From the NCBI GenBank assembly GCA_958510875.1, contig OY294070.1, positions 4,836,001-4,900,000 on the forward strand: a DNA stretch of 64,000 nucleotides, given 5' to 3'. The notes below the pieces were generated by a model. It searched no databases and had not been told where the DNA came from. It saw only the letters and a list, made by a program, of their open reading frames with translations. This document shows positions 46,956-64,000 of the stretch, piece by piece. The first letter of the stretch is position 1; each line of letters starts with the position of its first letter. This stretch comes from Endomychus coccineus (taxonomy: Eukaryota; Arthropoda; Insecta; Coleoptera; Endomychidae). The position numbers were made by a program, and so were the translations under genes.

Positions 46956-47066
46956 CGGAAGTGGCTCCGCCATTGCTGATTGTAGAGATAAGGAGTTGTG
47001 CTGTGATTGTATAGTATGTTTGGAGTGGGGGCGTGGCTTGTGTGTGATTGGTTGTTGGATTTGTAT
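46956..47066 (+). repeat. Polinton left terminal inverted repeat
   Basis: Begins CGGAAGTGGCTCCGCC and ends TTGTTGGATTTGTAT. All 111 bases match the reverse complement of 63,890-64,000. The outer end could extend a few bases further left; the right partner is cut by the window. Confidence 0.95.
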
Positions 47067-47224
47067 CTGAATACAGATGGTCTGTGTAGGTGTAGACAGA
47101 CATAATTCAATAGAAAAAAAACACACACACTATATTATAACGTTCTTTTATTTTTAGATTAATAATAATTTATTAGGGTAAGTGTAATAATAATAATAAT
47201 AATGATAATAATATAGATTCATCC

Positions 47225-49451: not shown

Positions 49452-52400
49452 ATGGGTGATATATCAAATATTAGTAAAGAAGTAGTAAAGATAATTCATG
49501 AAGCTTATGATAATTTCAGAAATATAACATTCACAGAATTAGAGAGACATAAATGGGTTAATTTTTGCAATAATCATTTAAGGAAATTTAATCATCATTT
49601 AATGAACTCTGCTATGAGTTTGGGACATGTAAATCAACTTCAAACAAATATTTCACACATCAAAAGGTTAAAGGTGTTGTTTCAAAATTTAAATCTTCAT
49701 CGAGGGATGGGGGTTGATAATCCTATGAGAGAATGTCGATCAGACCGTATTCGATGGGAAGATCTTAAATCTGCATTTTCCACTAAAATAAGATGTGGTA
49801 CTATAATTAATTTGAAACATTTAGATCCTCACACATTTTTAGAAGATGCTTATCATCTGTTTAAATCTAGAATATCTAGAATAATTGCTGATTATCATAT
49901 AGTTAAAGTAAATTCAATCTTTTGTGGTGAATATATTAAAAACAATATTAATCCAGATTTAATTAAAACAGATTTCAAATATTTCAATACTAAAACTGCG
50001 AAGATTGATTCTACCGACAATCTTCAGGAGTGGTTTGAAAATAATATAATTCATCCTATATTGAATAAGCTTGATGAATTTAAAGAGGTAGATTCGGGGT
50101 GGATGTTGCGGAATGTTATCAATCTTCAAATAAATATAAATAAAGTTGAACTGCTCAATGCGGGGTATAATGGTTCATCTTATATACGATTACCAGAAGA
50201 AATTGTAAATAAGAATGCTGTAATTAATGTTAAGAATGAGGATGAGTATTGTTTTGCTTGGGCTGTTATTTCAGCTCTTTACCCCGTTCAAAAGAATTGT
50301 GATAGAACTAAGTCTTACCCACATTTTTCTAATATATTGAAATTACAAAATTTAACTTTTCCTCTACATATCAATCAAGTTGCGATATTCGAAAAAAATA
50401 ATAATATTTCTATAAATGTGTATACGCTGAAATTGGTACGAAAAAAGAAAAATGGGAATTATGAGGTGCTTCCCACATACATAACAAGAACAAAATTATC
50501 TGAACACATCAATTTATTACTAATCCAAAATCAATATTCTTTGAATGGAGAACATGATGATGAGAATGTAAGATATCATTATTGTTGGATTAAAAATTTA
50601 TCTAGATTGATCAGTGCTCAAGTTTCGAAAAAACATACAATCTATATATGTGATAGATGTTTAAATTATTTTCATGTTCAACAAAAATTAGATGAACATT
50701 TAATATTTTGTAGAGATAATAATTTTTGCAAGGTGAGTTTTCCAAATGAGAAAATATTAAAATTCAAAAATTTTGTTCATAAAGAACCTATACCCTTCAT
50801 AATTTATTTTGATTTTGAGGCCTTGCTTATACCTATTCAACAATGTACACCAGATCCCACATTATCGAGTACCAATAAAATTCAAATGCATGAAGCATAC
50901 AGTGTAGGATTATATATAAAATGTTCATATGATGACTCTTTATCTATTTATAAATATTATAGAGGTCCTCAATGTACTAAATGGTTGTCAGAACAATTAG
51001 ATATAGTTGGAGAACAAATAGGATTATTATTGAAATATATCGAACCTATGAAGAAGTTATCCACGAATCAAAATATTGAATTCAGAACGCAAGAGCATTG
51101 TCACATATGTAGTTCAAAGTTCTCTCAAACAGATATTCGTGTAAGGGATCACTGTCACTTCACAGGAGTGTACCGTGGTGTGGCCCATCAAAGTTGTAAT
51201 TTGAATTTTAAAAAAAAATTCATTGTACCTGTGGTTGCACATAATTCTTCAAATTATGATACACATCTCTTGATAAAAGACTTATTACAAAATTCTCCTG
51301 GATCAATTCAATTATTACCCATCAATAAAGAAAAATATATATCATTCACTAAAGGTGGATTTAAATCAGCTGTCAAATTTCGATTTATAGATTCATGTCG
51401 TTTTTTAAGTTCACCTCTGAACAAATTAGTATCATACTTGGAAAGAGATGATTTCAAAATTTTAACGAAAGAATTTTCAGAGCTATCAAATGAGAAACTT
51501 GAACTGCTAATGAGGAAAGGTGTTTTTCCCTATGAATATCTTGATTCGTGGGAAAAATTGGATGATATAAATCTACCATCTGTTGATCACTTCTACGATA
51601 AATTAAATGATGAACCAATCAAGGAAGTCGAATATACCCATGCATGTAATGTGTGGTCAACTTTCAATATCTCATCGTTAGGTGAATATAGTGACCTTTA
51701 TCTGAAAACAGATGTACTATTATTGGCAGATGTTTTCGAAAATTTTCGTTCAAAATCTCTTAGCATATATAATCTTGATCCAGGATTTTACTATACTTCT
51801 CCAGGATATACTTGGGATTGTATGTTAAAATATACAGGAATTTCCTTAGAATATATCCAAGATGTAGATATGTTGATGTTTATGGAAGGTGGTATACGAG
51901 GTGGTATCAGTCAATGTTGTAATAGATATGCAAAAGCAAATAATAAATTCATGATGGACTTCAATCCAGATGAAGAGAACAGTTTTTTAATGTATTTCGA
52001 TGTGTGTAATCTTTACGGTTGGGCCATGAGTCAATATCTACCTTATGGAGGTTTTAAATGGGTTGAGAATTTCGAAGAATTTCAAGTTGAAAGCGTTTCA
52101 GATGAATCTGATATAGGTTATATGCTTGAAGTTGATTTACATTACCCCGAAATATTACACGATTTACATAAAGATTTACCTCTATGTCCTACACATATGT
52201 GTCCACCTCATTCCAAATTGAAAAAGCTACTAACCACCCTTTATTCCAAATATCGATATATAATACATTATAGAAATTTGAAACAATGCTTAAAATTAGG
52301 AGTAAGATTAACTAAAATTCATAGAATATTACAATTCAATCAGGCTCCTTGGTTAAAACCATATATTGAGTTGAATACAAAAAGGAGAATGAATTCTAGA

Positions 52401-53240
52401 AATGCTTTCGAAGTAGCTCTCTTCAAATTGTTTATCAACGCTTGTTTTGGTAAATTCATGGAAAATGTTAGGAAGCATCGTGATATCAAATTAGTATCAA
52501 GGTGGGAGGGTAAATGTGGGGCAAGATCATATATTGCGAAACCAAACTTCAATAGCAGCCAAATATTTGACGAAAATCTTGTAGCAATAGAACTTAATAA
52601 AACTGAGATAGTCTTCAATAAACCTCTATATGTTGGTATGTGTGTGTTAGATATTTCGAAAGTATGCGTTTATGACTTTCATTATAATTATATGATGAAA
52701 GTATTCCCTCATCCAAATGCACTATCTTTATTATACACTGATACGGACAGTTTAATTTATCATATCAAATGTAGAGATGTGTATGATGAAGTTATTAAAA
52801 AAGATCTTCATAGGTTTGATACCAGTGATTATAAGCTAGACAACATTTTTCAAATTCCACTCGTGAATAAGAAAATTGTAGGTCTCATGAAAGATGAATA
52901 CTGTGGGGAAATAATAACGGAATTTGTAGGTTTAAGATCAAAAATGTATGCCGTTAGAGTTCAAGGGAAATCTGAAACTAAGAAAGCCAAAGGTACTAAA
53001 TATAATATAGTTCAAAATGGTATCAACTTTGAGGATTATGTCACTTGCTTGCAAAATCAGTCTGAGATACTGCGAACCCAAAAATTAATTAGATCTCATA
53101 ATCATAATATTTATACTATTGAGCAAAATAAAATTGTTTTAAGCGCTCGTGACAATAAACGTTACATTATCGAAAATAATAAAACGTTACCTTGGGGGCA
53201 TTATTCTATTCCAGAGGTGGAGGATGAAGAAAACGATTAG
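49452..53240 (+). CDS. protein-primed family B DNA polymerase (pPolB)
   Basis: 1,262 aa, full length for Polinton polymerases. The exonuclease motifs are visible: FDFEAL (D454, E456), AHNSSNYDTHLL, and YSDLYLKTD. Polymerase motifs A (DVCNLYGWAM, D850), B (NACFGK, N996) and C (YTDTDS, D1097) are intact, so both the 3'-5' exonuclease and polymerase centres look active. A Cys/His cluster (HCHICSSKF...DHCHFTGVYRG) at about 548-585 resembles an endonuclease-VII-type zinc site. A segment around 267-350 (EYCFAWAVISALYP) is the conserved N-terminal Cys-containing module of these polymerases, sometimes likened to OTU proteases. It would copy the element from protein-primed ends. Start is the ATG following the OB-fold-like gene. 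Confidence 0.97.
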   Translation: MGDISNISKEVVKIIHEAYDNFRNITFTELERHKWVNFCNNHLRKFNHHLMNSAMSLGHVNQLQTNISHIKRLKVLFQNLNLHRGMGVDNPMRECRSDRIRWEDLKSAFSTKIRCGTIINLKHLDPHTFLEDAYHLFKSRISRIIADYHIVKVNSIFCGEYIKNNINPDLIKTDFKYFNTKTAKIDSTDNLQEWFENNIIHPILNKLDEFKEVDSGWMLRNVINLQININKVELLNAGYNGSSYIRLPEEIVNKNAVINVKNEDEYCFAWAVISALYPVQKNCDRTKSYPHFSNILKLQNLTFPLHINQVAIFEKNNNISINVYTLKLVRKKKNGNYEVLPTYITRTKLSEHINLLLIQNQYSLNGEHDDENVRYHYCWIKNLSRLISAQVSKKHTIYICDRCLNYFHVQQKLDEHLIFCRDNNFCKVSFPNEKILKFKNFVHKEPIPFIIYFDFEALLIPIQQCTPDPTLSSTNKIQMHEAYSVGLYIKCSYDDSLSIYKYYRGPQCTKWLSEQLDIVGEQIGLLLKYIEPMKKLSTNQNIEFRTQEHCHICSSKFSQTDIRVRDHCHFTGVYRGVAHQSCNLNFKKKFIVPVVAHNSSNYDTHLLIKDLLQNSPGSIQLLPINKEKYISFTKGGFKSAVKFRFIDSCRFLSSPLNKLVSYLERDDFKILTKEFSELSNEKLELLMRKGVFPYEYLDSWEKLDDINLPSVDHFYDKLNDEPIKEVEYTHACNVWSTFNISSLGEYSDLYLKTDVLLLADVFENFRSKSLSIYNLDPGFYYTSPGYTWDCMLKYTGISLEYIQDVDMLMFMEGGIRGGISQCCNRYAKANNKFMMDFNPDEENSFLMYFDVCNLYGWAMSQYLPYGGFKWVENFEEFQVESVSDESDIGYMLEVDLHYPEILHDLHKDLPLCPTHMCPPHSKLKKLLTTLYSKYRYIIHYRNLKQCLKLGVRLTKIHRILQFNQAPWLKPYIELNTKRRMNSRNAFEVALFKLFINACFGKFMENVRKHRDIKLVSRWEGKCGARSYIAKPNFNSSQIFDENLVAIELNKTEIVFNKPLYVGMCVLDISKVCVYDFHYNYMMKVFPHPNALSLLYTDTDSLIYHIKCRDVYDEVIKKDLHRFDTSDYKLDNIFQIPLVNKKIVGLMKDEYCGEIITEFVGLRSKMYAVRVQGKSETKKAKGTKYNIVQNGINFEDYVTCLQNQSEILRTQKLIRSHNHNIYTIEQNKIVLSARDNKRYIIENNKTLPWGHYSIPEVEDEEND

Positions 53241-55113: not shown

Positions 55114-56319
55114 TCAAATCAAATTACGGATATTTCCGGTCATTGCCGAATATTCAATAATCTTATCATTTATTATTATACAGTAAGCTCTTGTTTTATC
55201 TGGGAAATTGATGTGACTCTCAAATTCCAATTTCACATCAACTGTCGAAGATTTAATCGAATCGTTTTGTTTTGAACAATCGATAACGAAGAGAGATTTT
55301 TTCTGGAACGATGTATAATCTATAATAGGTTCTGAAAAAGTTTTATTGAGAAAGCTTTTCTGGAAATCTGTATACATTTGATACGCTTCGGTATATTGAA
55401 GATTCGGGAAATCCATCTTTGAAGCTTCATAAGGATAACATTCAGAGTTTAGGTATAATTTCACATTAATTATATTGATGTTATCGAAATATGTGCTCTG
55501 GTTCTTAGGATTATCTATACGATCCGTTTGGAATGCTAAAATTACATATCTAGGACGTTCTAAATTTGTAGCAGTTTTCACTGTCCATATATCTTTATTA
55601 CTTGTTCTCAATGAAGGATTCTCATAGATTTCCCAACTTCGAAAACTTATCAGTATGGGTTTGTTGATACTCAAATCCTCCAGCATTTTTAATTTGATTT
55701 CATCGTTAGGAAAAACATGTTTCACTTTCAGTGCTATGGTCTTAACAATTATTGTAGCTTTCTTTGTATCAGTGCTGTAATAACAACGTTCATCATTTCT
55801 GGATCGAATCAAACGTAGCTTATGTTTTCCACTCAACACTCTTCTATAATCGTAAAATACACCTAATAAGAAATTTAGCGGCATTCGTAGAACAAATGAC
55901 TTATTTGTAGGGTTAAATGTAGAAAGCGCTGCTTTATAATTCCAACCAGATGTATTCAATGCTGTACATTCGTTATCGTTATAAAGTAAGTAGGATCTGA
56001 TCGTACTAACAATTCCAGGATCTCGCACTTTATCAATTTCCTTTCCGTTAAGTTCATAGCTTATGGATTCAAAAAGAAATGCTCCTACATTGTTAGAAAG
56101 AGAACATTCACCAATACCATCGGTAGAAACTTTGAATTCAGCTTCTATATATAATGCGGCACTAAATAGATCAACCAAGATGTCTTGTTGATTTATTAAA
56201 ATTTCAATTTCATCATTATTTCCAAACGAATTGGTATGTGGATAGTATGTATGGGTTTCTTCCTTTATTATTTCTTCATCGAACGTTGGCTCGTTGAATA
56301 TTTGAAGTTTGTTTGACAT
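55114..56319 (-). CDS. MCP: major capsid protein, double jelly-roll type
   Basis: 401 aa. Recognised by the Polinton major-capsid pattern: YYPHTNSFGNNDEIEILINQ, then a strand-rich YIEAEFKVS, NNVGAFLFESISYELNGKEI and DPGIVSTIRSYL. Beta strands dominate throughout, as expected for two jelly rolls that trimerise into pseudo-hexameric capsomers. Polinton capsid proteins vary in length; 401 aa is at the short side. The 3' end of a small ORF overlaps its first 44 bases. Neighbours upstream are the penton gene and the maturation protease, the usual virion block. Presence of an intact capsid gene implies that particles could form, but that is not shown here. Confidence 0.85.
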   Translation of the reverse strand: MSNKLQIFNEPTFDEEIIKEETHTYYPHTNSFGNNDEIEILINQQDILVDLFSAALYIEAEFKVSTDGIGECSLSNNVGAFLFESISYELNGKEIDKVRDPGIVSTIRSYLLYNDNECTALNTSGWNYKAALSTFNPTNKSFVLRMPLNFLLGVFYDYRRVLSGKHKLRLIRSRNDERCYYSTDTKKATIIVKTIALKVKHVFPNDEIKLKMLEDLSINKPILISFRSWEIYENPSLRTSNKDIWTVKTATNLERPRYVILAFQTDRIDNPKNQSTYFDNINIINVKLYLNSECYPYEASKMDFPNLQYTEAYQMYTDFQKSFLNKTFSEPIIDYTSFQKKSLFVIDCSKQNDSIKSSTVDVKLEFESHINFPDKTRAYCIIINDKIIEYSAMTGNIRNLI

Positions 56320-56482
56320 TGTAACCCAATGATCTTAAGAATGAAATATTGGAATTTGATAATGATGCAGCAGCAACAACCTTTCCAGGCTCTTGTTTCA
56401 GATATACTGATTGCACTGGACGTAAATTCTGACTTAAGTATTGATTTGAAGAATTTTCAGAATTATGAAACGTTAAACCCAT
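56276..56482 (-). CDS. small overlapping ORF between penton and major capsid genes
   Basis: 68 aa, ATG at 56,482 inside the last codons of the penton gene, in another frame. It ends inside the first codons of the capsid gene. It links the two genes with overlaps of 20 and 44 nt. The C-terminal half (SNISFLRSLGYNVKQ) resembles the short FLRSLG motif that I recall from small proteins at this place in other Polintons. The compact overlaps suggest reinitiation or leaky scanning on one transcript. It may be a minor virion component. Moderate confidence that it is translated. Confidence 0.5.
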   Translation of the reverse strand: MGLTFHNSENSSNQYLSQNLRPVQSVYLKQEPGKVVAAASLSNSNISFLRSLGYNVKQTSNIQRANVR

Positions 56483-57197
56483 TTCTTTTCAACTCCAAAC
56501 GAATCACTATTTGCTCTCCTCTAAAATTGACCGCTTCACCGTCCTGATCTTGAATATTCAAGGTAATATTATCAATGGACTTTTGATTGATAATTGGTAG
56601 ATAAATTAGATTTCTCGGTTCTATGTCTATAGCAAATCCAGGGTCAACTAATGGGGAAAATTCGTATATGGTGTGTGATAACTTATTATCATAGTACGAT
56701 CCTGCTGTTATATTACACTCTATCCGTATGGTAACTACTTTGACGATATTCACAGGTAGATCCGATTGATGTAATTCGTTAGCCTTCAATACTTTTTTGG
56801 AAAATCCTAAAAGTGAACCTAAACTGTCTGGAGGGGAAAAGTCTATTTCATATACACTTTTCAACTCGGACCTTAGAGTATTATTATTCGGTTTCAAAGA
56901 TAACAGAGTTTTGCTATCTCTCTTCTGCTTATCAGTTGGTGATAAAGATTTCTGTAGAAAACTTTCAATGTCTGCTATCTCATAAGAACCTGTGGGAATC
57001 TGAATAATATTCTTGCTTTTATCCGATTTATAATAGAACCTATTATTTCTACCTTCTTCTATATTAGGCACACTATTATATGTATGGAATCCAACTAATG
57101 CTAAAGAATATTCACTATTAGGATCTAGTTCAATTGGAGGGTAAAAGTCTACAGCAATTCTACTACTCGTACCTTTCAATGTGAACGTGTTCGACAT
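56463..57197 (-). CDS. mCP: minor capsid (penton) protein, single jelly-roll type
   Basis: The frame is open from 57,290 but the plausible start is ATG 57,197 (MSNTFTLKG), giving 244 aa, because the preceding 31 codons lack an ATG and overlap the protease. FYPPIELDPNSEYSLALVGF, then TYNSVPNIEEGRNNRFYY is the recognisable start of Polinton penton proteins, followed by IPTGSYEIADIESFL and a strand-rich remainder. Pentons fill the five-fold vertices of icosahedral particles. It begins 10 nt after the protease stop and overlaps the following small ORF by 20 nt, a tightly packed virus-style block. Confidence 0.8.
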   Translation of the reverse strand: MSNTFTLKGTSSRIAVDFYPPIELDPNSEYSLALVGFHTYNSVPNIEEGRNNRFYYKSDKSKNIIQIPTGSYEIADIESFLQKSLSPTDKQKRDSKTLLSLKPNNNTLRSELKSVYEIDFSPPDSLGSLLGFSKKVLKANELHQSDLPVNIVKVVTIRIECNITAGSYYDNKLSHTIYEFSPLVDPGFAIDIEPRNLIYLPIINQKSIDNITLNIQDQDGEAVNFRGEQIVIRLELKRNGFNVS

Positions 57198-57207
57198 GAC
57201 TGAGTTG

Positions 57208-57585
57208 CTATGAATAAGAAACGTTGTTATATAGAAACTGAAGACATAAGTGTCCACAATTGTAAGTGTTATATTTTTGGAACGAATCATGATTGTATAG
57301 TATCGTACAATTTTTAAAGTAGGATATCAGTTCTCTAGGTGGTCTTAGATTACCAAAACTATCAAAATACAAAATTGTATCTTTCTTCTTTATGAAAGCT
57401 ACCCAGTGACTTCCTCTATGATCTTTCGAATCTAGATTAACAATAGCACACTCATTTTGGAGTGGACCAGAGATCGGTAGCTCATCTCGCATGAATACAT
57501 CACGAAAATGTGGAATATTCAATATCTTAACGAATTTCTTAAGATCAATATCCGATAAAGGTCTTCTGGGTAGCTTTAATGGTAG
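57208..57585 (-). CDS. PRO: adenovirus-type maturation cysteine protease, probably expressed by -1 frameshift
   Basis: Catalytic pattern of adenain/Ulp1-fold proteases: His in GSHWVAF, Asp in LYFDSFGN, Gln in FQKYN and Cys in YNCGHLC, preceded by the Polinton-typical VFMRDELP. The enzyme would cleave virion precursors during particle maturation. The frame is open from 57,684 but has no ATG before the one at 57,492 inside VFMRDELP; starting there would drop the conserved N-terminal segment SDIDLKKF. The whole domain is in the -1 frame relative to the PLA2/core ORF, entered exactly at a slippery A AAA AAC (57,591-57,585), so I place the coding start after it. Alternative: a short protein from ATG 57,492, or an undetected splice. 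About 125 codons after the slip. Confidence 0.8.
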   Translation of the reverse strand, partial: LPLKLPRRPLSDIDLKKFVKILNIPHFRDVFMRDELPISGPLQNECAIVNLDSKDHRGSHWVAFIKKKDTILYFDSFGNLRPPRELISYFKNCTILYNHDSFQKYNTYNCGHLCLQFLYNNVSYS

Positions 57586-58400
57586 TTTTTTTGTTTCTGA
57601 AGATATAGTCCAAGACCTTTTTGATGTTTTCTCAAGTATAGGCCGGACCCTTGTTTGCCAAGTGCTATAGCTTCCATCGATTTGTTATGACGTTGTGCCT
57701 CTTCTAAATCTCTTCGAGCTTGTTTTGATTTATTAACCGCATTAACTATGGCCGTTGCCCCACCAGTTAGAGCACCTGCAGCTGATAGCCCCGCAAACAG
57801 AGGTATAAGGAAAGGAAGGAATCCACCTGTTTTAGGTAGGGGGATTACTCTTGGTAAATTTACTTTCTTCTTCCCTCCCACTCTTTTGATTTCATTTTTG
57901 GCAACGTTCAAAGCGAATTGTGAGGATTTTTTCAAATCAGCGTAATCGGTTTTATTCATTTTCTTACGAATACCTTTGACTATACTATTATGAAATCCTA
58001 CTCGTTTCTGACGTTTCTTAATACCTCTACCAGATTTCCTTCTACTCTTCTTTCGTTTCTTCATACCCATACCTAATTTCCTTTTAGCCTTCATCGTTTT
58101 ATTCACTAACCAAGCTGCAATCTTCTCACGGAAATTTGCGCTTTTTGATTGCAATCTGTTATAAGCTTTTTCTTCTAATTCACGATCGGCCTTATGCCTA
58201 ATATCTAAATCGTTCTCACTTTGAGAGTAAGCTATATCGTGCTGACGACAAGCTTTATCTAACTCATTTACACCAGGATCTCCACGATTCAGGCGCTTCT
58301 TCAGTTTAGTACCAGGACCACAATACTGATAACCTGGTATGTGTACTTCGAACGGTAGATTATTTATTAGCGAGTTAACAACACCCTCACCGTAATGCAT
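57576..58400 (-). CDS. PLA2-domain virion core protein
   Basis: The start is ATG 58,400 (274 aa); codons further upstream lack a better start and overlap the divergent promoter. Residues 21-60 carry a parvovirus-type phospholipase A2: calcium loop YCGPGT and catalytic HD (H54, D55) in ACRQHDIAYS. In related viruses this enzyme breaches endosomal membranes. A highly basic stretch (KKRKKSRRKSGRGIKKRQKR) suits DNA condensation. Next is a hydrophobic segment (GGFLPFLIPLFAGLSAAGAL) and a C-terminal part with GLYL repeats resembling adenoviral core peptide X. LTGG|A fits the adenain cleavage consensus, which is only suggestive. Divergent from the ATPase gene with 79 nt between ATGs. The ORF ends at 57,576, two codons after a slippery heptamer. 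Confidence 0.85.
   Translation of the reverse strand: MHYGEGVVNSLINNLPFEVHIPGYQYCGPGTKLKKRLNRGDPGVNELDKACRQHDIAYSQSENDLDIRHKADRELEEKAYNRLQSKSANFREKIAAWLVNKTMKAKRKLGMGMKKRKKSRRKSGRGIKKRQKRVGFHNSIVKGIRKKMNKTDYADLKKSSQFALNVAKNEIKRVGGKKKVNLPRVIPLPKTGGFLPFLIPLFAGLSAAGALTGGATAIVNAVNKSKQARRDLEEAQRHNKSMEAIALGKQGSGLYLRKHQKGLGLYLQKQKNYH
57585..57591 (-). promoter_or_regulatory. putative -1 ribosomal frameshift site A AAA AAC
   Basis: In the PLA2/core frame the codons CAA AAA AAC place the heptamer A AAA AAC in the X XXY YYZ register, and TAA follows two codons later. Slipping back one base continues in the protease frame. This is the same heptamer used by several retroviral gag-pro junctions. I could not see a strong downstream stem or pseudoknot by eye. 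Confidence 0.6.
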
Positions 58401-58479: not shown

Positions 58480-59169
58480 ATGAAAGTTGTGAAACAGAAG
58501 ATCACTCTTGATATAATGAATCTTGATGATGAACCAGATGTTATAGCAAACCGTGATAGACATGGTTCTTTATTCCCGAATACTTTGAGAACAATAATCT
58601 GTGGTCCTAGTAATTGTGGGAAAACTAATGTAATGTTATCTCTGTTGTTCGATCAAAATGGTTTGCGTTTTGAAAATGTATATGTGTACTCGAAATCGTT
58701 ACATCAACCAAAGTATCAACTTCTTCAGGAAACGTTAGCCAAAATTCGAGGATTGGAATATCATCCATTCTCTGAAAATGATGATGTCATCGATCCTCTT
58801 CAGGCCAAACCCAATTCCGTTATCATATTTGATGATGTAATGTGCGATAAGCAAGATAAGATCAGAGCGTACTTTTCAAGAGGTAGACATAATTTAATTG
58901 ACAGTTTCTATCTGTGTCAGTCATATGCAAAATGTCCGAAACATGGAATACGTGATAATACTAATACTATGATAATTTTCAAACAAGATGATCTTAATCT
59001 TCGACATATATACGATGATCATGTAACTAGTGATATGCCATTTGAGAAATTTAAAAATATATGTTGTCAGTGTTGGAAAGAGAAATATGGTTTTATCATG
59101 ATAGACAAAGACAGTGATTTACATAAAGGGAGATATAGGAAAAAATTTGATTCATTTATATATCTATGA
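58480..59169 (+). CDS. ATP: FtsK/HerA-type genome-packaging ATPase
   Basis: 229 aa from ATG 58,480; the in-frame TTG at 58,456 is not a likely start. Walker A is GPSNCGKT (42-49). Walker B is VIIFDDV (D118, D119), with Asp in place of the usual Glu after the first Asp. A later SRGRHNLIDSFYLCQSY segment fits sensor and arginine-finger positions (GRH..., then Q at the end of a strand) of A32-like packaging ATPases. The protein would pump element DNA into preformed capsids. It faces the PLA2/core gene and leads a plus-strand cluster. Confidence 0.9.
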   Translation: MKVVKQKITLDIMNLDDEPDVIANRDRHGSLFPNTLRTIICGPSNCGKTNVMLSLLFDQNGLRFENVYVYSKSLHQPKYQLLQETLAKIRGLEYHPFSENDDVIDPLQAKPNSVIIFDDVMCDKQDKIRAYFSRGRHNLIDSFYLCQSYAKCPKHGIRDNTNTMIIFKQDDLNLRHIYDDHVTSDMPFEKFKNICCQCWKEKYGFIMIDKDSDLHKGRYRKKFDSFIYL

Positions 59170-60987: not shown

Positions 60988-61920
60988 ATGTATAGTAAAG
61001 AAAAGGTTCAAATTGTTCGTGAGTTACATAAGCCTGCATTGAAAAATTACAACCGTCGGAGAACAATTATTAAAGGAATTGACGATCTATGGCAGGTTGA
61101 TCTTGCTGATATGAATAGCTACGTTCGGGATAATGCCGGATACAAATATATATTGGTTGTGATAGATTGTTTCTCCAAATATGTGTGGACGAGACCGTTG
61201 AAAACGAAAACAGCTGGAGAAGTACGAGATGCATTTAACAAAGTTCTAAGTAATTCTAAAAATAGAATTCCTAAGAATCTTCAATCTGATAATGGGACAG
61301 AATTCTATAACAAACTGTTCTCTGAACTGATGCGAAAATATCATATCAATCATTATAGTTCTTTTTCTATTATGAAAGCTTCTATAGCTGAGAGGGTGAT
61401 AAGAACTTTGAAAGAGAAAATCTACCAGTCATTCAGCTTGCGTGGAAAATATAAATGGATTGATGTTTTAGATAAGATTGTATTAGATTATAATAAGCGT
61501 AAACATCGAACTATTGGTATGGCACCTTGTAAGGTTACAAAGAGCAATGAAAAATCGGTTCTAAATAGATCATATTCACACATGAAAAGAGCATTACCCC
61601 ACAAATTCAATGTTGGTGATATAGTTAGAATAAGCAAAACGAAATGCTTATTTGAGAAAGGATATACGCCCAGCTGGTCTACGGAGCTCTTTAAGATTTC
61701 TCGAGTTCATTTTACAAACCCTATTACATATTTATTAGAAGATATGTTTGGAAAACCAATATCTGGAGGATTCTATGAATCGGAAATTCAGAAGACTAAG
61801 CAACCAGATGTATATCTAGTTGAAAAAATTCTACGTAGGAGGGGACAAAAGTTATATGTTAAATGGCTGGGATTGGGGTCTGAACATAACAGCTGGATTC
61901 CAAAGAAAGATGTACTATGA
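60988..61920 (+). CDS. INT: retroviral-type integrase with C-terminal chromodomain
   Basis: 310 aa. The DDE triad is D38 (WQVDLADM), D101 (LQSDNGTEF) and E135 (ASIAERVIRTLK), with normal spacing for rve integrases, so the enzyme looks active. Basic DNA-binding residues precede the core (NYNRRRTIIKG). After an SH3-like part (KFNVGDIVRISK) comes a chromodomain (VYLVEKILRRRGQKLYVKWL, then HNSWIPKKDVL), which in related elements guides insertion to modified chromatin. It inserts the linear element and normally makes 6-bp target duplications. The N-terminal zinc-binding part is reduced, as in other Polintons. Confidence 0.95.
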   Translation: MYSKEKVQIVRELHKPALKNYNRRRTIIKGIDDLWQVDLADMNSYVRDNAGYKYILVVIDCFSKYVWTRPLKTKTAGEVRDAFNKVLSNSKNRIPKNLQSDNGTEFYNKLFSELMRKYHINHYSSFSIMKASIAERVIRTLKEKIYQSFSLRGKYKWIDVLDKIVLDYNKRKHRTIGMAPCKVTKSNEKSVLNRSYSHMKRALPHKFNVGDIVRISKTKCLFEKGYTPSWSTELFKISRVHFTNPITYLLEDMFGKPISGGFYESEIQKTKQPDVYLVEKILRRRGQKLYVKWLGLGSEHNSWIPKKDVL

Positions 61921-63230: not shown

Positions 63231-63689
63231 ATATAGAAACCACATTGTTTTATTAATAATATCAGGTTAGTTGTATTTGAAGATGTCTGTTTCGTTGCTT
63301 CTATTTCAACAGTTCTGTTAGCCGATCGAACAGCTCTGATAACAGATATCGCTAACAGATCTGCTTGAAGATGCTTGTATCTGTTCCTGTTCCCACAGTT
63401 CTGTTAACAGATGGTGCTACTGACAGATCTGTTTGAAACATCAGATCAGTTGATAACACTATTCTGCTATCAGAAGGTGTCACTGTTCACTGAACGACCG
63501 CTGTCCACAGATGGCGCTACTGACATCTAATTAATCAGATCAGTTATGCTTAAACATCTGTTTCTGTTCCAACAGTTCAGTAGACAGATGGCGCTAGCGT
63601 TACTACTGATCATAGAACAACCCCGCTGTCCACAGATGGCGCTACTGTCATCTCTGCCATAGCGCAACAACCGCCATCACTCCATCCAA

Positions 63690-63691
<2 letters not shown>
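63231..63691. repeat. Polinton right subterminal degenerate direct repeats
   Basis: Motifs CAGATGG(C/T)GCTACTG (near 63,400, 63,513, 63,580 and 63,633) and CTGTTCC(C/A)ACAGTTC recur in loose tandem. No gene. Such subterminal repeats may bind element proteins, but no function is shown. Confidence 0.7.

Positions 63692-63758
<67 letters not shown>
63692..63758. repeat. (CT)n microsatellite
   Basis: A pure CT dinucleotide run of about 67 bp inside the Polinton right end. The minus-strand RE-repeat frame across it is an artefact. Confidence 0.97.
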
Positions 63759-63761
<3 letters not shown>

Positions 63762-63889
63762 CACAACCAATCACAACAAGCCACACCCATCCCACGTACA
63801 ATACAACTCCAACAACCAATCACACACAAGCCCACTCCATCCAATCGCTCTCTTATCACAACCAATCATAACAAACCACACCCATCCAC
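63759..63889. repeat. TIR-like subterminal repeats
   Basis: Two tandem partial copies of sequence that also occurs in the TIR: CAACCAATCACA(C)A(C)AAGCC and TCTTATCACAACCAATCA appear before the TIR proper. The left end has no matching second copy. Confidence 0.7.
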
Positions 63890-64000
63890 ATACAAATCCA
63901 ACAACCAATCACACACAAGCCACGCCCCCACTCCAAACATACTATACAATCACAGCACAACTCCTTATCTCTACAATCAGCAATGGCGGAGCCACTTCCG
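63890..64000 (-). repeat. Polinton right terminal inverted repeat (reaches the window end)
   Basis: 111 bases identical to the reverse complement of 46,956-47,066. The final bases GGCGGAGCCACTTCCG are the last of the window, so the flank and the target-site duplication are not visible. Confidence 0.95.

Follow-up and report, generated by a model that had tools for sequence, protein, structure and literature searches.

How is a viral protease made when its reading frame has no start codon? The question is raised by an element in the window, by which we mean the whole stretch of 64,000 nucleotides analysed here, on contig C5 of the 906 Mb assembly that was searched. In this element, a protease frame follows a gene for a phospholipase A2 (PLA2)/core protein, and the initial annotation proposed that ribosomes reach the protease from that gene by -1 frameshifting. 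Judging from the sequence comparisons reported here, -1 frameshifting is very probably the best explanation of the core-protease junction.

The element is best filed as an adintovirus-type Polinton. It has terminal inverted repeats and encodes a double-jelly-roll capsid protein, a retrovirus-like integrase, a packaging ATPase, and an adenain-like protease. Matches for the capsid protein, integrase, and ATPase were over the Pfam cut-offs and that for the chromodomain was under its cut-off, while the protease was assigned by fold. The features, in window coordinates, are as follows.

46956..47085, no strand: left arm of the terminal inverted repeat, of which 130 nt were seen; its complementarity with the right arm is 94%
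49452..53240, plus strand: 1262-aa open reading frame, presumed PolB from its size, place, and DTDS motif
55114..56319, minus strand: major capsid protein, double jelly roll, ATG-started (PF21738, E 1.4e-88)
56463..57197, minus strand: next open reading frame downstream of the protease, ATG-started, without a Pfam match, putative penton by position only
57585-57208, minus strand: adenain-like cysteine protease in the -1 frame, 125 aa plus stop
57492-57490, minus strand: first Met codon in frame with the protease; in the model it ends the first beta strand
57576..57578, minus strand: core stop codon TAA, read from the sequence
57591-57585, minus strand: slippery heptamer A AAA AAC in the core frame; heptamer and next T invariant in six family representatives
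57738..57830, minus strand: weak match to adenovirus mu/pX core protein (PF05829, 19.5 bits against a cut-off of 25)
58155..58349, minus strand: phospholipase A2-like domain (Pfam PF08398, over its cut-off)
58400-57576, minus strand: core open reading frame with PLA2 domain, basic region, and pX-like hydrophobic region, 274 aa (Phospholip_A2_4, E 1.9e-13)
58480..59169, plus strand: packaging ATPase (Pox_A32, E 8e-6, over its cut-off)
60988..61920, plus strand: retrovirus-like integrase (rve, E 8.5e-14) with chromodomain-like C-terminus (Chromo, E 1.5e-4, under cut-off)
63871..64000, no strand: right terminal inverted repeat arm, running to the window edge

We take the DTDS motif in the 1262-aa frame to be a PolB-type sign. 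A Pfam scan of this frame (49452-53240) at E 0.01 found no polymerase family, and the only matches were Endonuclease_7 (E 1.5e-5, over cut-off) and, in the E 0.01 scan, zf-MYST. A further open frame, at 63584-63871 just inside the right terminal repeat, translates as a long serine-leucine repeat.

The core-protease junction and its product

The core frame ends in CAG AAA CAA AAA AAC TAC CAT TAA (QKQKNYH*). Within it, A AAA AAC stands in X XXY YYZ register at 57591-57585, two codons 5' of the core stop, and a back-slide of one base at this heptamer leads into the protease, 125 aa encoded at 57585-57208. Its frame is already open from 57684, yet the first Met is an internal one at 57492, which is residue 32 of the shifted product. 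The initial annotation had placed CAA AAA AAC two codons before the core stop, had equated the -1 frame from that point with the protease, and had described a protease frame lacking an ATG before an internal Met; all of this was confirmed, and its coordinates for the junction were exact. A canonical heptamer in the 0 frame near a stop, with an open -1 frame downstream, is the arrangement of programmed -1 frameshifting.

Codon shuffles of this core gene (20,000) placed an in-frame AAAAAAC within the last 10 codons in 0.6% of cases and any canonical slippery heptamer there in 6.8%. At 0.6%, the window junction taken alone is suggestive rather than decisive, and the comparative data weigh more. 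The core's two other in-frame heptamers would lead to -1 extensions of 1 and 7 aa and those of the capsid gene to extensions of 8 and 3 aa; the penton-position frame has no heptamer.

The -1 product showed a weak Pfam C5 match (under cut-off) and a phmmer match to adenovirus proteinase. Its AlphaFold2 model had a mean pLDDT of 92, and the best match in the PDB by Foldseek was adenovirus 2 proteinase (1nln, E 2.5e-8). An adenain is recognized by a C5 fold and a His/acid/Cys active site; here the fold is modelled, the His and acid are aligned, and the Cys lies in a conserved NCGHLC, the three residues presumably having the catalytic roles.

The position of the internal Met bears on where translation of the protease could begin. 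In the model, this Met comes after the helix DIDLKKFVKIL and ends the first strand; the stretch upstream of it is predicted to form adenain's first helix and strand. A start at the internal Met would drop the first helix and parts of the fold that are conserved in homologues. The initial annotation had noted conserved sequence upstream of the Met, and this sequence is indeed conserved as protein in the -1 frame, its residues being kept in homologues and the alignment with adenain beginning at adenain residue 4. We also compared the window family (F1) with a second family in the genome (F2) across the gapless stretch of 33 codons that runs from the heptamer up to the internal Met, and found 10, 4, and 15 differences at protease codon positions 1, 2, and 3, respectively. 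In this single comparison of a single pair, the pattern is that of a frame that appears to be translated.

Related families in the same genome

Protein and pattern searches of the genome found, besides the window family F1, families F2, a to d, and e. The F2 protease is about 66% identical to that of the window family, and cores of F1, F2, and a to d are 52-67% identical between the main lineages (the c core is partial). In the protein search of the genome, 86 of the 150 scored protease rows had one identical score; they represent F2 and are a sign of a recent burst of this family. When a distant relative's protease was used as query, F2 was the only family among the loci read. The genome pattern search, in which 39 places were read among 798 matches, was complemented by a GTHWVAY pattern that returned one damaged copy of family a.

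Representatives of six families (F1, F2, and a to d) carry AAAAAACT at the same place, and in all six the core frame ends in K N x x stop, with the heptamer A AAA AAC followed by T. AAAAAACT is the longest invariant run in the 235-column junction alignment of these representatives, the next longest being 5 nt; adding family e changes C to T (A AAA AAT) and leaves AAAAAA as the invariant run. The protease frame contains no Met from its last upstream stop to the heptamer in any of the six, and in F2 a TAA stands in this frame two codons upstream of the heptamer. An AUG that would give the whole protease was found in none of the six representatives; in family c, residue 11 of the shifted product is a Met. 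We note that the six out of six is not a blind sample, notably for d, because the representatives of a to d were taken from copies already known to have the heptamer and the junctions were located by AAAAAACT.

The initial annotation called for a check of heptamer conservation in related elements, and the outcome was favorable for most families and unfavorable for two. Alongside the six representatives, the heptamer was present in 25 of 27 copies of F1 (absent from L017 and L022), in 46 of 50 copies of F2 (absent from L057, L060, and L076, and with an altered run joining the frames in L127), and, among copies with a readable junction, in 8/8 of a, 9/9 of b, and 9/9 of c, but in only 2/6 of d, while e, with one copy, has the T variant. 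Most copies in five of six families thus kept it, and d, with four of six altered, is the clearest departure. The altered copies of d differ from one another, which would fit decay. In L017 and L127, the run holds the heptamer string or its T form out of register. Since copies of one family are not independent, these counts describe the families and do not test the reading. The counts omit repeats of known places (L063, L068, L078, L080, and L122-L125), L121, which is an extension of L101, and copies that were rearranged, truncated, or damaged (L086, L091, L093, L094, L096, L097, and L126), of which L096 and L097 still hold an AAAAAAC string. The string is also kept in the otherwise damaged copies L026, L089, L090, L095, and L120, and an F2-like relic, L031, retains AAAAAAC.

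The several damaged copies in the genome could suggest that a start codon was simply lost through decay, with the protease made from the internal Met or not made at all. However, the layout without a start is common to several families, including F2 with its many rows at one score, and a protease begun at the internal Met would lack the first helix. We consider decay a most improbable account of the junction.

Two altered copies were of a different kind. In L127 (F2) and L109 (d), an altered A-run puts core and protease in one open frame, which in L127 is 394 aa long. On contig C1, the protease motif GTHWVAFR was seen in opposite-strand pairs about 5-9 kb apart, for example 69439326(+)/69448179(-), 99002030/99008581, 129935011/129944192, and 148667144/148676197 (loci L091, L093, and L094). 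In three plus-strand members that were read, the upstream sequence was not protease, and the pairs may represent a protease fragment in both arms of another repeated element.

Homologues in other insects

Conservation outside this genome was judged from protein ends. The homologues named by organism were insects, such as the beetles Molorchus, Aromia, and Leptinotarsa and the wasps Leptopilina and Cotesia. One core homologue, 52% identical to the window core, is named PLA2X in a Megastigmus wasp adintovirus. Among the matches listed (120 of 1078 core homologues), 118 had KN in the last 20 residues, and in 114 of those 118 it lay within two residues of the C-terminus. The residue before KN could be encoded by NNA in 118/118 (background 83%), and what came after KN could have a codon beginning with T in 110/118 when stops are included. 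Setting aside the 27 cores in which a stop follows directly, this held for 83/91, against a background of 21%. The residues after KN (Y, F, C, S, L, or stop) have little else in common. A KN end with an NNA-codable residue before it and a T-start residue after it is what A AAA AAC T predicts.

Of the 120 protease homologues listed among 751, 24 have a predicted N-terminus at least 26 residues before FRGVF, and 14 of these 24 have KKL upstream of FRGVF, as does the window protease at that place. When Lys-Lys-Leu is read in the protease frame and Lys-Asn in the core frame, the only bases that satisfy both are AAAAAAC. For the relatives, this heptamer is a deduction from core and protease ends taken as two separate sets.

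A KN end could instead be conserved for a reason in the protein, if for instance the core's C-terminus acted as a cofactor peptide in the way of adenovirus pVIc, with the heptamer as a by-product, and its place so near the C-terminus in 114 of the 118 homologues would agree with this. Against it, the codons are fixed as well, AAA AAC after A and before T in the six representatives, although in the core frames of these representatives, read from the preceding stop, Lys is AAA in 119 of 191 cases and Asn is AAC in 34 of 79. The residues after KN also vary, yet mostly can begin with T, and the protease would be left without a start. We regard a purely protein-level cause as very unlikely.

Splicing would supply the protease with a start codon from an upstream exon, through a spliced or alternative transcript. 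Adenovirus late genes, which are made from spliced transcripts, are the model, and splicing is commonplace in nuclear DNA viruses. An AG stands directly before a conserved CTACC in F1 and in families a to e, but F2 lacks that AG, and, with splice sites judged by eye, the stretch is A-rich with no preceding pyrimidine tract. Splicing also offers no reason for the common AAAAAACT or the conserved KN end, and we think it unlikely.

A start of its own, by reinitiation at or near the core stop or at a non-AUG codon, would make frameshifting unnecessary, and several observations point in this direction. In 78 of the 120 protease relatives listed, gene callers predicted a start near KLP; an AUG can be deduced to overlap the stop with core ends such as KNxQ; ATA, a near-cognate codon, occurs in a to e at the place of the relatives' predicted start; CTG follows just after the heptamer in F2; and family c has its Met at residue 11. 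Other observations count against it. The place aligned with ATA is TTA in F1 and GTA in F2, both poor starts, and the CTG of F2 is not common, being CTA in F1, CTT in a to c, and CTC in d. An M in a called protein may also stand for a GTG or TTG start; five of eight jgi-source relatives begin with V or L. The KN end is also left unexplained. An independent start is improbable for the junction as a whole, and some of the KLP-near starts may be true AUGs, giving those relatives another route such as reinitiation. In these relatives the condition that the initial annotation set for refuting its proposal may hold, and in a to e the ATA could conceivably serve as a non-AUG start. The comparison with related insect elements that the initial annotation suggested thus upholds -1 frameshifting through the KN ends and through natural fusions of core and protease, described below, with the reservation that an AUG may be in use in some relatives.

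With the Megastigmus PLA2X as query, 111 further cores were added among the matches listed (120 of 2667). Of these wasp-side cores, 60 have KN, 40 have a Lys run only, five are full-length fusions, and six are others. The Lys-run class and the departures in family d set limits to calling the heptamer universal. Two similar cores, P0293 and P0325, differ at the Lys run as if the length of the A-run had changed, as judged from protein only, and on the wasp side the relation between core and protease frames may be switching.

Runs of A also raise the question of whether RNA polymerase slippage, rather than the ribosome, joins the frames. The runs of six to seven A, the Lys runs in wasp-side relatives, and the altered runs that join the frames in DNA in L127 and L109 would all be consistent with this. 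However, the F2 run has only six A, which is short for polymerase slippage, and the C and T after the run are common to the six representatives and are not needed by a polymerase. This explanation has, in our view, a very small chance of being correct.

Relatives also include natural counterparts of the product expected from -1 frameshifting. Single-frame PLA2-core-protease fusions, 377-409 aa long, were found in 5 of 231 core homologues (P0243, P0273, P0295, P0297, and P0299; P0295 is a cluster of five sequences). They aligned with the window core over 263-269 positions and with the window protease over 112-125 positions at 49-58% identity, and no other core among the 231 had a protease match. 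The predicted frameshift product of 397 aa has the same architecture, and in these relatives the PLA2/core-protease fusion is, as predicted from sequence, one open frame. Shorter core-protease fusions, P0011 and P0027, occurred among the 120 protease homologues listed. In P0011 and P0056, KKNF is in frame with the protease, and here a slip could possibly end the protein rather than extend it.

Proposed mechanism and likeness to gag-pro

The initial annotation's reading of -1 frameshifting is supported by AAAAAACT in six representatives, by the lack of an AUG for the whole protease in them, by the KN ends, and by the natural fusions; slippage, its efficiency, packaging, and cleavage are inferred. 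Under the proposed mechanism, the protease would have no start codon of its own. Most ribosomes would end at the core stop and yield the 274-aa PLA2/core protein, while a minority, decoding AAA AAC on A AAA AAC, would slip back one base and enter the protease. The slip product would be a 397-aa core-PLA2-protease fusion consisting of core residues 1-272 and 125 aa. Such a fusion would bring the protease into the particle along with its DNA-binding substrate and at low ratio, in the manner of retroviral gag-pro.

A downstream stimulatory structure is common in -1 frameshifting and not universal. Pseudoknot-free folding of the 40-121 nt that follow the heptamer, done for the window and five other families, gave none beyond shuffles, and 60-nt folding z-scores ranged from -0.75 to +1.25 across the six families. 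The initial annotation, which had seen no strong downstream hairpin by eye, was right in this. Without a structure beyond shuffles, slippage would depend on the heptamer, perhaps together with the nearby stop, and its efficiency would be modest. The stop lies two codons behind the heptamer in the six representatives and 0-2 residues behind it in 114/118 relatives. Few proteases are presumably needed per many core proteins, and modest slippage would suit that stoichiometry. In the accessible text of one study, A_AAA_AAC counts as one of the heptamers on which mammalian ribosomes shift most, and mouse mammary tumor virus (MMTV) has a pseudoknot stimulator (PMC5009743).

The layout that the initial annotation compared to gag-pro is present, with a structural protein upstream, a protease in the -1 frame, and a heptamer near the end of the upstream frame, as in gag-pro of the MMTV type, and here too a low-ratio fusion would be expected. 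The MMTV frameshift heptamer is likewise A AAA AAC. Unlike gag-pro, this is a DNA element, there is no structure beyond shuffles, and the protease is an adenain-type cysteine protease, whereas the retroviral protease is an aspartic protease. With PLA2/core and adenain-like proteins in place of the retroviral ones, the junction would work like gag-pro without being a member of it. With adenovirus protease and pX, the element shares the predicted protease fold and a weakly matched pX-like core stretch, but the adenovirus protease is made as a separate protein, whereas this one would begin as a core fusion.

Closer relatives are the PLA2X and protease genes of adintoviruses, which, as far as the accessible descriptions go, include the same PLA2X gene and a protease of the same class. 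In the accessible text of a preprint (PMC11071296), -1 frameshifting is proposed for some adintovirus Penton genes, found with KnotInFrame, and potential Hexon-Adenain fusions are said to show a similar relation. The general idea is therefore not entirely new. As described there, those cases share with ours the virus group, the kind of event, and, in one case, the protease, but have other upstream genes. In the accessible parts of six other papers, frameshift refers to a mutation, an assembly error, a search setting, or another virus (PMC12567637, PMC10120064, PMC8097293, PMC12721341, PMC9683012, and PMC8363768), and a polinton review does not use the word (PMC3671162). We found no description of a PLA2/core-protease frameshift junction in the literature searched, most subscription papers lying outside it. 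The initial annotation knew of no description of a low-ratio core-PLA2-protease fusion in Polintons; within that literature this stands for the present junction, but frameshifting as such was already proposed for adintoviruses in the preprint.

We lean, with a good deal less confidence than for the window junction, towards a wider generalization in which the maturation protease of arthropod adintoviruses is a C-terminal extension of the DNA-binding PLA2/core protein, reached either through slippage on A AAA AAC near the core stop, with no structure required, or through a genomic fusion that took its place. If true, DNA viruses would have their own counterpart of gag-pro, one in which protease and genome are loaded together, and recoding of the gag-pro kind would reach a large group of DNA viruses and mobile elements. 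It would also explain protease genes without a start codon in such elements and serve as a warning for annotation, since PLA2X and protease may form one expression unit. Maverick (Polinton) particles had not been observed by 2021, according to the accessible part of one paper (PMC8097293), and a conserved low-ratio tie of maturation protease to core would speak for selection on particle assembly.

The core has a further feature that bears on its relation to the protease. Of 231 cores, 196 carry the motif [MIL]xGG within their C-terminal 130 aa, and this LxGG stretch resembles what we take to be the cleavage motif of adenain, the adenovirus protease. By this resemblance, the core itself may be a substrate of the protease.
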